Of a stretch of 52,372 nucleotides of DNA, positions 126 through 48,337 are shown in pieces. Made by a program: the position numbers and the translations under genes. The stretch is from a virus. The stretch lies in the IMG/VR virus record IMGVR_UViG_3300020416_000009, positions 1 to 52,372 of that record; one strand, written 5' to 3'. Under the pieces are notes generated by a model. That model made no database searches, had not been told where the DNA came from, and was given only the letters and a program-made list of their open reading frames with translations. The stretch's first letter is position 1. Each line of letters begins with the position of its first letter.

Positions 126-201
126 GCCTTCGTAGCTCAGGGGATAGAGCAACGGTCTTCTAAACCGTGGGTCAGAGGTTCGAATCCTCTCGAAGGCACC
201 A
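126..201 (+). tRNA. tRNA-Arg (anticodon TCT)
   Basis: The acceptor stem GCCTTCG (126-132) pairs with CGAAGGC (191-197), followed by discriminator A198 and an encoded CCA (199-201). The anticodon arm ACGGT/ACCGT (152-156, 164-168) encloses loop CTTCTAA, giving anticodon TCT at 159-161, which reads AGA. The T loop TTCGAAT is canonical. AGA is a favoured arginine codon in AT-rich phage genes, so the tRNA probably supplements the host pool late in infection. Confidence 0.95.
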
Positions 202-33482: not shown

Positions 33483-34505
33483 TTATTTAGGTAAGAATGC
33501 GTCGATTCCGTCAACGTACTGATTCATACCAAGTAGATCTCCAACTGATTTTCCAGGGAAGATAACAAATTCGCCTGATTCGATTGCGGCTGCAATCTTT
33601 TCGGCTGCCTCTTTTACATTAGCAGGCATATTTGTATAAGGCGCCATTTCAACCATGCCGGTATTCATGCCTCCCCATGTATCTGCCATTTCCCATGTTC
33701 CATCCATAACTGCTTTTACTCTAGCAACATAGTAAGGACCCCATTGGTCAATGATAGAAGTTAGTTGAGTATTAGGCGCAAAATTAATCATGTCAGATGC
33801 TTGACCAAAAGCAAATATTCCTTCAGCTTCAGCAACTTGTAGAGGTGCAGTAGAATCTGTATGCTGTGTTAAGATATCAGCACCTTGATTAATTAATACT
33901 TTAGCAGCATCTGCTTCTTTGCCTGGATCATACCATGTGTTAACCCATATGACATCAATATCAAAGTCAGGATTAATTGATGTTGCACCAAGATAAAATG
34001 CATTGATTCCTCTTACAACTTCAGGAATTGGAAAAGATGCAATATAACCTGCTTTTCCTTTTCTACTCATCATTCCTGCAATAACACCTTGTACATATCT
34101 TCCTTCATAAAATTTAGAAGAATAGATTGACATATTAGGTGCAGTTTTGTAACCTGTTGCGTGTTCAAATTTTACATTCGGAAAGTCTTTAGCAACTTTT
34201 AGCATTGCTTCCATATAACCAAATGACGTTGCGAATATAATATCTGTTCCACCTAAAGCCATTTGACGCATGACTCTTTCAGCATCAGGACCTTCTGGTA
34301 CATTTTCAACATATACGGTTTCTACTTTATCACCAAAAGCTTCAATCACAGATTGACGTCCTTGATCATGCATGTAAGTCCAACCGTGGTCACCCACTGG
34401 TCCGACAAAAACAAATCCGACTTTTAACTTTTCACCTGCAATTGCAGAGAATGTTAAAGTCAACGGTAGTAGTGCTACTACCAGAGCCCTTAATAGTATT
34501 TTCAT
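33483..34505 (-). CDS. BMP/PnrA-family substrate-binding protein (BMP1)
   Basis: 340 aa with a Sec signal peptide (MKILLRALVVALLPLTLTFS-AIAG). The mature part has the Med/BMP family pattern: KVGFVFVGPVGDHGWTYMHDQG, GGTDIIFATSFGYME, and GAGMMSRKGK-type segment (VIAGMMSRKGKAGYIASFP). Family members are periplasmic receptors for nucleosides or related compounds feeding an ABC transporter. No permease or ATPase gene is present, so it would cooperate with host transporters. No lipobox cysteine is visible. It is preceded by a small hairpin leader. A second, divergent BMP gene lies at 47.3 kb. Confidence 0.88.
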   Translation of the reverse strand: MKILLRALVVALLPLTLTFSAIAGEKLKVGFVFVGPVGDHGWTYMHDQGRQSVIEAFGDKVETVYVENVPEGPDAERVMRQMALGGTDIIFATSFGYMEAMLKVAKDFPNVKFEHATGYKTAPNMSIYSSKFYEGRYVQGVIAGMMSRKGKAGYIASFPIPEVVRGINAFYLGATSINPDFDIDVIWVNTWYDPGKEADAAKVLINQGADILTQHTDSTAPLQVAEAEGIFAFGQASDMINFAPNTQLTSIIDQWGPYYVARVKAVMDGTWEMADTWGGMNTGMVEMAPYTNMPANVKEAAEKIAAAIESGEFVIFPGKSVGDLLGMNQYVDGIDAFLPK

Positions 34506-40788: not shown

Positions 40789-41016
40789 TTATTTTCCTGT
40801 TGCTGATGGGATTTTGTCTGAAAGATCGGCAAAATTTGCTTCAAGATTTACTTGAGTTCCGCCTATCAATTTTGCCATTGCTTGAATATCGTCAACTAAA
40901 TATTGACATTTGGTTTTATCATATGAACCTGAAGTTTTATATCTTTCACGATGAAGCATTACTGCTTTATCATGTAGTACTGAAATTTTTTCATAAAGTT
41001 CTTCAACGGTTTTCAT
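40789..41016 (-). CDS. small hypothetical phage protein, 75 aa
   Basis: Charged and helical (KTVEELYEKISVLHDKAVM; LVDDIQAMAKLIGGTQVNL), ending SDKIPSATGK. The start has GGAGAAAAT immediately upstream. It is the first protein gene after the tmRNA in the direction of transcription. No family recognised. Confidence 0.65.
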   Translation of the reverse strand: MKTVEELYEKISVLHDKAVMLHRERYKTSGSYDKTKCQYLVDDIQAMAKLIGGTQVNLEANFADLSDKIPSATGK

Positions 41017-41214
41017 ATTTTCTCCATAAAATTAAAGTGTGTAGGGAGGACTTGGGTTTCACCTCCAACTAGGTCGACAAAGATACCATTCTTCCAATCC
41101 CCTAGAACTTACTTCCACTCGGTAGAGTGATGTGATCCTTAGCCGCTAGGCTTTGAACCTGGGTACCACCCCTAAGCAATCAAGTTACGCCTCTTGGTGT
41201 GACGCGTTTCCTTG
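41017..41214 (-). other. non-coding, structured spacer downstream of tmRNA
   Basis: No protein frame with a ribosome site is visible. Several hairpins occur, including CACTC-TACC-GAGTG (about 41126-41139), AGCC-TAGC-GGCT (41140-41151) and GGAGG/CCTCC (41046-41067 region). The sequence is less AT-rich than average. It may be a 3' extension of the tmRNA precursor or a separate small RNA. Confidence 0.35.
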
Positions 41215-41541
41215 CACTACACTATCCGACCCGTCGGCCAAATTCTGTGGAGAGATTCTGTTTCCAAGCTCTCTCCTGGCTCAGTACAATTAGGCCGCTA
41301 AGGCGTAATTAACAGGTGCAAAATTATCGTTTGCATTTAGGTTTTGTAGACTCAAACACCAGTCGATCCTATTTCGCCCCCATCATGAATACACTACTAG
41401 TTTTCTTGCAAACTATCCGGAATTGAATCGTACGATGTTTCTATACAATCGTAATGTCTTTCATCCGCGTCCGCAGTGTATTCATGGTGGAGGCGACGGG
41501 TATTGCACCCGTGTCCTGTCTGTCCTCTAACATCTACCATG
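41215..41541 (-). ncRNA. ssrA: circularly permuted tmRNA
   Basis: Read on the minus strand, the acceptor half comes first: a T arm ACGGG-TGCAATA-CCCGT, then CGCCTCC-A-CCA with the CCA at 41485-41487. A 103-nt intervening segment (41382-41484) follows, then the normal tmRNA 5' end GGGGGCGAAATAGGATCGAC starting at 41381. GGGGGCG pairs with CGCCTCC as a 7-bp acceptor stem with one G-U. The intervening segment starts and ends with an 11-bp inverted repeat (ATGAATACACT/AGTGTATTCAT) that extends the acceptor stem in the precursor. The tag frame and a GGAGAGA/TCTCTCC hairpin follow. This order is that of alphaproteobacterial two-piece tmRNA. Outer ends are approximate. Confidence 0.88.
41290..41334 (-). 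other. tmRNA proteolysis tag frame
   Basis: Resume codon GCA at 41332-41334; the frame encodes ANDNFAPVNYALAA and stops at TAA 41290-41292. It starts with AND and ends with YALAA as in E. coli (ANDENYALAA), so ClpXP-type degradation signals are kept. The TAA is followed by a 7-bp stem. Confidence 0.88.
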
Positions 41542-41726
41542 TTATTTATACACCTCCCGTTCGTGAGTTCGACGGTAGTGGTGTATGGTGTGGAACTAAC
41601 CGTGGTCCCACGCGTGCTTATTAAGGAGCAACCCTGTTCCTGTAGATGGGAGAGTATGCAGTCGTTGTATTTCCATCCTGACGCTAACTCGTCTTGTCGA
41701 GTTCCAGTAACACTCCCTGCAACCAT
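41542..41726 (-). other. non-coding, structured spacer upstream of the tmRNA acceptor half
   Basis: Hairpins AACTCG/CGAGTT (41691-41708 region), CGTG-GGAC-CACG (about 41601-41613) and CCGT/ACGG are visible. An uninterrupted frame crosses this and the tmRNA but has no ribosome site. It may be the 5' part of the tmRNA precursor, or an unrecognised RNA. Confidence 0.35.
41543..41550 (-). promoter_or_regulatory. late-promoter octamer just before the tmRNA acceptor half
   Basis: Minus-strand TATAAATA ends 5 nt before the GGTAGA that pairs with TCTAC of the 5' half (P2 helix). If used, it would start a transcript at the edge of the acceptor piece, giving late expression of tmRNA. Function inferred only from position. 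Confidence 0.45.
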
Positions 41727-47332: not shown

Positions 47333-48337
47333 CTAGAATGTTGACTTAGGTTCATCATCAATAATTTCAACTGTGAATTTACCTGCAACAATATCATCAG
47401 ATAATCTTGCAATATGATCTTTCATTTCTCTGGTAATTTTACTATCAAACTCATAGAATGGTGCTAATGAAGCTCCACCTTTTGCCATCATTGTCCAGTC
47501 ATGATATTCTTCAGCTGACCAAGATCCTGCTTTTACTTTTGCAATTGCATGATCTATAGCACCTTCCATATGCCACAATGCAGAAGTTACAACCACATCA
47601 GTTCCACCTTCTTCTTTGTTCATATCATTTACGTTACCAAATGCAAGGATTCCTTTTTCTTTGCAAGCATCTACTACACCAGCTCTTTCTGCATATAGTA
47701 TATCACAACCCGCTTCAATCTGAGCAAAGGCAGCTTCTTTTGCTTTTGGAGGATCATACCAAGAACCGATATAAGTTACTTTAAACTCACACTCAGGATT
47801 CATACTTCTTGCACCATTCATAAATGCATGAAACAATCTGTTGACTTCGCCTATGGCATATCCGCCGACCATACCAATCTTTTTAGTCTTACTCATTTCA
47901 CCTGCAAGTATTCCCATCAAATAACACGGCTCATGTATGTAGTTATCAAATACTGAAAAATTACCATTGTGCGGTTTGAAAGGATCACCCATTAGGAATG
48001 CTATACTTGGATAATCGTCTGCAACTTTTCTTGCTTCTTTACTTATGCCAAATGCTTCTCCTACAATCATGTTTACACCGCTGTCACAGTACTCTCTCAT
48101 AACTCGTACGTAATCGGTGTTTGCAGTACTTTCATTATACACATATTCTATCTCACCACGCTTAGCTGCGGCATCAAGAGCAAGGTGTAATCTTGCCACC
48201 CATTTTTGTTGTGTTGGTACAGTGTATATACCAGCAACTTTTAATTTACCTCCAGCAAAAGCTGGGAAAGTAGTTAAGGCTGCCATTGCAGTAGCAGTAC
48301 CTATACTAAATTCTCTTCTATTCATTCTTAATATCAT
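47333..48337 (-). CDS. BMP/PnrA-family substrate-binding protein with Tat-type signal (BMP2)
   Basis: 334 aa. GGAGG 4 nt before ATG 48337. The N-terminus MNRREFSIGTATAMAALTTF with R7-R8-x-F is a twin-arginine signal, cleaved after FPAFAGG. The mature domain has KVAGIYTVPTQQKWVARLH, MIVGEAFGISKEARKV and YILGE-type segments like BMP1, but the two are clearly diverged. Bacterial members deliver nucleosides or small organic compounds to ABC transporters. Tat export implies folding in the cytoplasm. No transporter partner gene is visible. Confidence 0.85.
   Translation of the reverse strand: MILRMNRREFSIGTATAMAALTTFPAFAGGKLKVAGIYTVPTQQKWVARLHLALDAAAKRGEIEYVYNESTANTDYVRVMREYCDSGVNMIVGEAFGISKEARKVADDYPSIAFLMGDPFKPHNGNFSVFDNYIHEPCYLMGILAGEMSKTKKIGMVGGYAIGEVNRLFHAFMNGARSMNPECEFKVTYIGSWYDPPKAKEAAFAQIEAGCDILYAERAGVVDACKEKGILAFGNVNDMNKEEGGTDVVVTSALWHMEGAIDHAIAKVKAGSWSAEEYHDWTMMAKGGASLAPFYEFDSKITREMKDHIARLSDDIVAGKFTVEIIDDEPKSTF

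Follow-up and report, generated by a model that had tools for sequence, protein, structure and literature searches.

The 52,372-nucleotide (nt) stretch of viral DNA analyzed here (positions 1 to 52,372 of IMG/VR virus record IMGVR_UViG_3300020416_000009, hereafter the window) carries on its minus strand a circularly permuted gene for transfer-messenger RNA (tmRNA), in which an acceptor piece and a coding piece flank an intervening segment. We put at roughly 0.7 the probability that this gene is a late-expressed, alphaproteobacterial-type ssrA of a T4-like marine myovirus and that its intervening segment is a cargo slot, occupied here by a 103-nt structured RNA. The intervening segment is the unusual part of the locus. 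Comparison with relatives supports the identity of the gene, the placement of its promoter and the stem that closes the segment; it also shows coding cargo in the relatives and differing cargo on a near-constant backbone.

The comparative set consisted of matches to a coding-piece pattern, 80 stretches from the longer list of a second pattern, and loci fetched by their cargo; individual loci are designated by L and a number. Of the matches, 186 had complete ends, and from these came 124 unique intervening segments; the unique count is the figure to use because some contigs were fetched twice.

The window encodes an alphaproteobacterial-type permuted tmRNA

An initial annotation of the window had proposed a circularly permuted phage tmRNA on the minus strand at 41215-41541. 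Covariance models bear this out: RF04321 (tmRNA_permuted) matched 41537-41290 (-) with 80.7 bits (cut-off 47, E 5.9e-14), and RF01849 (alpha_tmRNA), the model that the annotation had named as a check, matched 41577-41246 (-) with 67.9 bits (cut-off 50, E 1.7e-16). ARAGORN did not detect a tmRNA in the window. The feature is real, and better bounds for it are 41537 to about 41245, the 3' end of the coding piece being approximate (Table 1). The gene order is permuted, with the acceptor half, which ends in CGCCTCCACCA and has the A of its CCA at 41485 as anticipated, lying ahead of the coding half, which starts with GGGGGCGAAATAGGATCGAC at G1 (41381). The acceptor stem GGGGGCG/CGCCUCC, already proposed from the DNA as GGGGGCG/CGCCTCC, pairs along its full length and is tRNA-Ala-like with G3-U70; its 3' strand and the CCA read CGCCUCCACCA. 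The predicted tag frame was found as ANDNFAPVNYALAA followed by a stop (41334-41290), with resume codon, stop and degron-like end all present.

The coding piece is also backed by the spacing of its core and by P2 pairing, the acceptor piece by a compensatory T-stem change in a relative (L083), and an intact acceptor stem is kept across many diverged phages. Since all the parts needed for trans-translation are present in the window and conserved in relatives, the identification holds, and the gene is, by sequence comparison, confirmed as a phage-encoded, alphaproteobacterial-type circularly permuted tmRNA. Its use for ribosome rescue or altered tagging during infection is plausible.

Two other statements of the annotation fell. 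It had suggested that a phage copy is new, but two-piece tmRNAs had already been published for phages, with 53 structures of which marine or aquatic samples supplied 50 (PMC9004378). It had also taken the tmRNA to fix the host group; phage Melnitz infects OM43 methylotrophs yet has an alphaproteobacterial-type ssrA (PMC9004378), and with such a non-alphaproteobacterial host the tmRNA type cannot fix the host.

The short core apparently lacks pseudoknot PK1

PK1 is apparently absent from the window tmRNA, in which only a few A-rich nt lie between P2 and the resume region. The same few A-rich nt are seen in a short class of relatives, and other relatives (e.g., L258, L262, L270) have a longer core, seemingly with PK1. 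E. coli tmRNA without PK1 is reportedly still able to tag (Wower 2009, cited in PMC3968760). Nor does PK1 define permuted tmRNA, as RF04321 models tRNA-domain pairs only (PMC11915505). The outer pairs of P2 covary, with GUAGA/UCUAC in some phages and GAAGA/UCUUC in others, and tags end in degron-like residues (ALAA, RLAA or similar) in nearly all loci. The coding-piece pattern found the exact short core in 77 viral stretches and matched none of the 84,980 bacterial and archaeal species whose genomes were searched; by this search, the exact PK1-less short core therefore looks restricted to viruses. Separately, the tmRNAs of L014, L038, L041, L045 and L065 have an unusually long tag of 31 amino acids (aa), ANDNVAQPKFMKKRNTFARKVGFTKGMALAA.

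A predicted late promoter precedes the acceptor piece

In the window, the T4-type late promoter motif TATAAATA ends 5 nt ahead of the acceptor piece, whose first base is G41537; the same motif stands ahead of several other window genes, some of them structural. T4 late transcription starts about 6 nt after the last A of the motif. Judged from the motif, this spacing puts the start at G41537, so that the mature 5' end is probably determined by the promoter. The placement recurs among the relatives: of 63 unique sets of upstream and core sequence, 61 have TATAAATA or AATAAATA immediately before the acceptor piece, with a gap from the motif to the first P2-pairable bases of usually about 3-7 nt, and 104 of the 124 unique loci have NATAAATA no more than 130 nt ahead of where CCA ends. 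The cultured phage Melnitz also has TATAAATA upstream of its tmRNA, and NATAAATA likewise stands ahead of genes in cyanomyoviruses (PMC2984593).

Phage intervening segments are long and closed by a covarying stem

Alphaproteobacterial segments measured 5-80 nt, with a median of about 36 (74 loci, leaving out one artefact of 373 nt), and those viewed were mostly plain hairpins. The 373-nt value (L158) reflects a second copy of the tmRNA and not a true segment; this genome, Rhizobium sp. Root1212, has two tandem tmRNA copies, the second with a lower score. The long bacterial segments of L278 and L279 were considered as genes and rejected as not gene-like, the long segment of L278 (alphaproteobacterial genome G167) being repeat-like. 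Phage segments ranged from 9 to 388 nt (quartiles 71, 106, 142).

A closing stem directly beside the acceptor stem was nearly always present in phage segments. In the 32 unique pairs of arms taken from segments 50 nt or longer, 95% of its positions were paired, a value tilted somewhat upward by taking the best pairing among three registers; when the 3' arms were redealt among loci, a mean of 68% and a maximum of 77% were paired, so the closing stem covaries. In the window, the inverted repeat reported by the initial annotation is present, with a length of 12 base pairs (bp) and not 11 bp.

Relatives carry protein genes inside the segment

A ribosome-binding site (RBS) with an open reading frame (ORF) of at least 25 codons was found in 33 of 67 unique segments of at least 100 nt, against a mean of 5.5 and a maximum of 11 in shuffles, the counts taking in related sequences. 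In L042 and relatives, the segment is filled by the gene of a 78-aa protein, probably a membrane protein. Compared with its homologue in L025, it shows 32.5 changes over 40 synonymous sites and 16.5 over 191 non-synonymous sites, a ratio of non-synonymous to synonymous change (pN/pS) of 0.106. The gene occurs at 27 viral loci, is nested in at least 6 tmRNA backbones and is free-standing in L254, L255, L260 and L266-L269; it had no match in isolate phages. L025 packs two ORFs, overlapping at GTGA, into one 388-nt segment.

The pN/pS ratio was 0.05-0.22 in a 35-aa family starting MDEVLLWQF and, from few changes in each case, 0.098 in the MNWDWHWISW family and 0.088 in the MMKNPLIRKV family; the close pairs L051/L070 and L033/L040 had too few changes for a ratio. 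Melnitz (L285) has an RBS and an ORF, MFKWLSKTRLVVITRDYFRERNRKADAKIPKYLSG..., inside its segment that is not annotated in its record and is conserved in L297 and L354 (pN/pS 0.29-0.40). With ratios mostly of about 0.1, the protein genes of the segment are under purifying selection. Among the cargo proteins tested, there was no Pfam match and no nuclease family, and the L051 ORF had a single weak PHROG match, of unknown function. A search of openly available papers, which leaves out most subscription journals, gave no report of ORFs located inside the intervening segment of a tmRNA gene.

Two further observations bear on how the slot is used. L254 and L260 have near-identical upstream genes and tmRNA backbones but different segments, plain and hairpin-like in L254 and, in L260, an ORF resembling the MNWDWHWISW family; the comparison suggests that one cargo replaced another on a near-constant backbone. 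In L013, L051, L066, L260, L353 and Melnitz, the stop of the nested frame lies past the predicted cut before GGGGG, and maturation would therefore make the cargo mRNA non-stop, that is, a tmRNA substrate.

The window segment probably carries a structured RNA

ORFs in the window segment do not exceed 7 codons. The fold of the segment reaches -29.1 kcal/mol (z -3.81), a value equalled by none of 200 shuffles, and its inner 80 nt are identical (80/80) in L010, with which the surrounding 1.2 kb is 95.3% identical; such identity has a probability of about 0.02 if changes are independent. Given this excess stability and identity, we call the segment a probable structured RNA cargo. It had no Rfam family match (41484-41382, E up to 10), and no further copies were found beyond L010 and L018 in the fetched loci, L083 and L290 ending inside the segment.

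A second RNA, S2, occurs in 12 contigs (loci including L036, L008, L032, L047 and L270-L276), always within a tmRNA segment and on two different backbones. The structure proposed for it includes a pseudoknot, is 98.5% paired and has a covariation score above all 500 shuffles, computed on only seven related sequences; in L036, the single locus that was scanned, S2 matched nothing in Rfam. Homology of the window segment to S2 was considered and set aside, being not evident by eye and giving no blastn matches. A third RNA has a conserved core, GAGGTCTTGGTCGTTACCAGCATNGCAAAAACGGCGACAG, which is found in L291, L337, L373, L411 and L412, with closing stems that differ in the copies viewed.

The surroundings of the tmRNA and the phage

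In L010 and L035/L072, as in the window, the tmRNA is directly followed by a manA RNA; no terminator separates the two in the window. In Pelagibacter phage Mosig, manA shares the strand of the tmRNA and lies 3.2 kb downstream of it, and Melnitz has at the corresponding place a glutamine riboswitch aptamer, matching its authors' report. In L035 (5171-5403, -), manA is followed by a terminator-like hairpin with a T run and no ORF comes next, so it is no obvious 5' untranslated-region element there. The 75-aa ORF that follows manA in the window had no Pfam or PHROG match. In many relatives, an ORF with an RBS begins 56-77 nt past the tag stop, just after the 3' hairpin. In L007, L011, L006, L051 and L061, the genes that come immediately after the tmRNA resemble, by eye, auxiliary metabolic genes (an AprB-like ferredoxin-type protein, a Rieske-type oxygenase, a desaturase).

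The non-coding block 41552-41725 (-), between a SWIM-domain gene and the late promoter, is largely conserved in L083, and the SWIM homologues L084 and L085 lack the whole upstream block. As a candidate structured RNA it found no support, its energies being no better than those of shuffles (z -0.94, -0.54) with no Rfam match. A RAGATH-21 match at 41558-41488 (22.6 bits, cut-off 70.3) was taken as chance because it overlaps the T arm.

The window phage is T4-like, with a baseplate region and a gp32 that is 55.9% identical to that of phage C48C1 and 54.9% to that of Pelagibacter phage HTVC008M. Its proteins at 33483-34505 and 47333-48337 (-) resemble by eye BMP-type substrate-binding proteins of the periplasm, which phages do not usually carry; the 33483-34505 protein had no PHROG match. 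A tRNA-Arg (TCT) lies at 126-201 (+), a type of which Melnitz carries two copies (PMC9004378).

Table 1. Features of the tmRNA locus in the window (positions as in the whole stretch)
Feature	Position	Strand	Basis
T4-type late promoter TATAAATA; predicted start G41537	41543..41550	-	exact motif; same placement in relatives
tmRNA acceptor piece (P2 3' strand, T arm, acceptor stem 3' half, encoded CCA)	41485..41537	-	RF04321, RF01849
Intervening segment (12-bp closing stem, three-way-junction fold)	41382..41484	-	fold z -3.81; closing-stem covariation in relatives
tmRNA coding piece (acceptor stem 5' half, P2 5' strand, resume codon, tag, 3' hairpin)	41245..41381	-	RF04321, RF01849
Tag reading frame ANDNFAPVNYALAA and stop	41290..41334	-	sequence; Rfam tag-region alignment; variants in relatives
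manA RNA	41035..41241	-	RF01745, 60.5 bits (cut-off 55.2)
75-aa ORF after manA, with RBS	40789..41016	-	ORF list; conserved in L010

A model for the locus and its alternatives

From these features we infer how the locus may be processed, how the tmRNA may act in infection and what becomes of the cargo. Late transcription from TATAAATA would begin at the 5' end of the acceptor piece and give a single precursor, which RNase P and a 3' processing enzyme would cut before GGGGG and after CCA. The two pieces would stay joined through the acceptor stem and P2 and, with host SmpB as is general for two-piece tmRNAs, would rescue stalled ribosomes and add ANDNFAPVNYALAA. The excised segment would be a small mRNA or an RNA with paired ends; with cargo inside the segment, one late promoter and tmRNA processing would therefore also deliver a separate small RNA. 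We picture the segment as having expanded from a short bacterial hairpin to carry small protein genes or structured RNAs. Nested frames with a stop past the cut might be translated before it, or the cut might yield non-stop mRNA that the tmRNA could tag. On balance, though less firmly than for the window gene itself, we favor extending this to a general cargo slot of T4-like marine phages, exchanged, late, released by maturation and with some of its cargo non-stop, of which the window would hold a structured-RNA version.

Several points weigh against this cargo-slot model. Transcription and processing of the locus are predicted from the sequence, the ORF counts include relatives of one another, and for 20 of the 124 unique loci the search gave no promoter motif. 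The authors of the Melnitz study proposed an early promoter for its ssrA (PMC9004378); unlike that proposal, the promoter placement reported here predicts that the rescue RNA is wanted during virion-protein synthesis. The window segment, finally, has two unique full copies only, and for this reason its inner helices have no covariation support.

The last point also favors the likeliest alternative, in which the tmRNA is an ordinary phage two-piece molecule and the window segment a functionless spacer that has drifted in length and keeps a processing hairpin. Bacterial and many phage segments are indeed plain hairpins, the window segment lacks an Rfam match, and covariation backs the closing stem only, the rest being confined to a single lineage. 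Against a spacer stand the fold z of the window segment, the 80 unchanged nt in a region with 95.3% overall identity, and relatives whose segments hold selected protein genes and a covarying RNA, and we consider this explanation rather unlikely. It is improbable that the tmRNA serves mainly as a processed 5' leader that shields or separates the late mRNA and the regulatory RNA following it, trans-translation being of secondary importance: the downstream ORFs of many relatives and the unterminated junction with manA would suit such a role, but the tag frame and its degron-like ends, kept in nearly all loci, are needless for a leader. Finally, a decaying or non-functional host-captured tmRNA retained by chance would account for the missing PK1 and for model scores lower than on bacterial genes, but is very hard to reconcile with an acceptor stem, G3-U70, CCA, resume region, tag frame and P2 kept in many diverged phages with compensatory changes, and with the tagging said to persist in E. 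coli tmRNA without PK1.

Under the cargo-slot model, protein genes nested between the pieces of a structural RNA would be an unusual form of genome packing, and annotation misses them, as the Melnitz ORF illustrates. If the released pieces act, one processing pathway would yield both a rescue RNA and an effector, and if some cargo mRNAs turn non-stop on release, these loci would offer a natural test bed for trans-translation.

Comparison with known systems

The phage tmRNAs have in common with alphaproteobacterial two-piece tmRNA (RF01849; merged model RF04321, PMC11915505) the gene order, acceptor stem, T arm, tag frame and closing stem; they differ in the late promoter, the apparent absence of PK1 and far longer, cargo-bearing segments. 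Closest are the ssrA genes of Methylophilales phage Melnitz and Pelagibacter phage Mosig (PMC9004378), also permuted two-piece tmRNAs of marine T4-like myophages and likewise near a regulatory RNA, the glutamine riboswitch in Melnitz and manA in Mosig. The segment holds a nested ORF in Melnitz, is short (about 43 nt) in Mosig and is structured in the window, where, in addition, the late promoter stops 5 nt short of the acceptor piece and manA follows the tmRNA directly. The window manA itself scores above the cut-off of its family (RF01745), yet sits directly behind a tmRNA.

Inserts in tmRNA intervening sequences have been described, namely a tRNA-Ala gene in one nominally archaeal gene and a repetitive element in another (PMC11915505). 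These are likewise foreign sequence within a permuted tmRNA segment, but isolated cases, whereas the phage set shows a recurring slot, selected protein genes and cargo exchange. Homing-endonuclease genes in group I introns, including tmRNA introns (PMC11915505), are likewise protein genes nested in what is cut out of a structural RNA; the phage segment, in contrast, lies between two mature pieces of a permuted gene and involves no intron or splicing, and the cargo proteins tested matched no nuclease family. Within the open literature searched, the cargo slot, the placement of the late promoter and the PK1-less viral form appear to be new.
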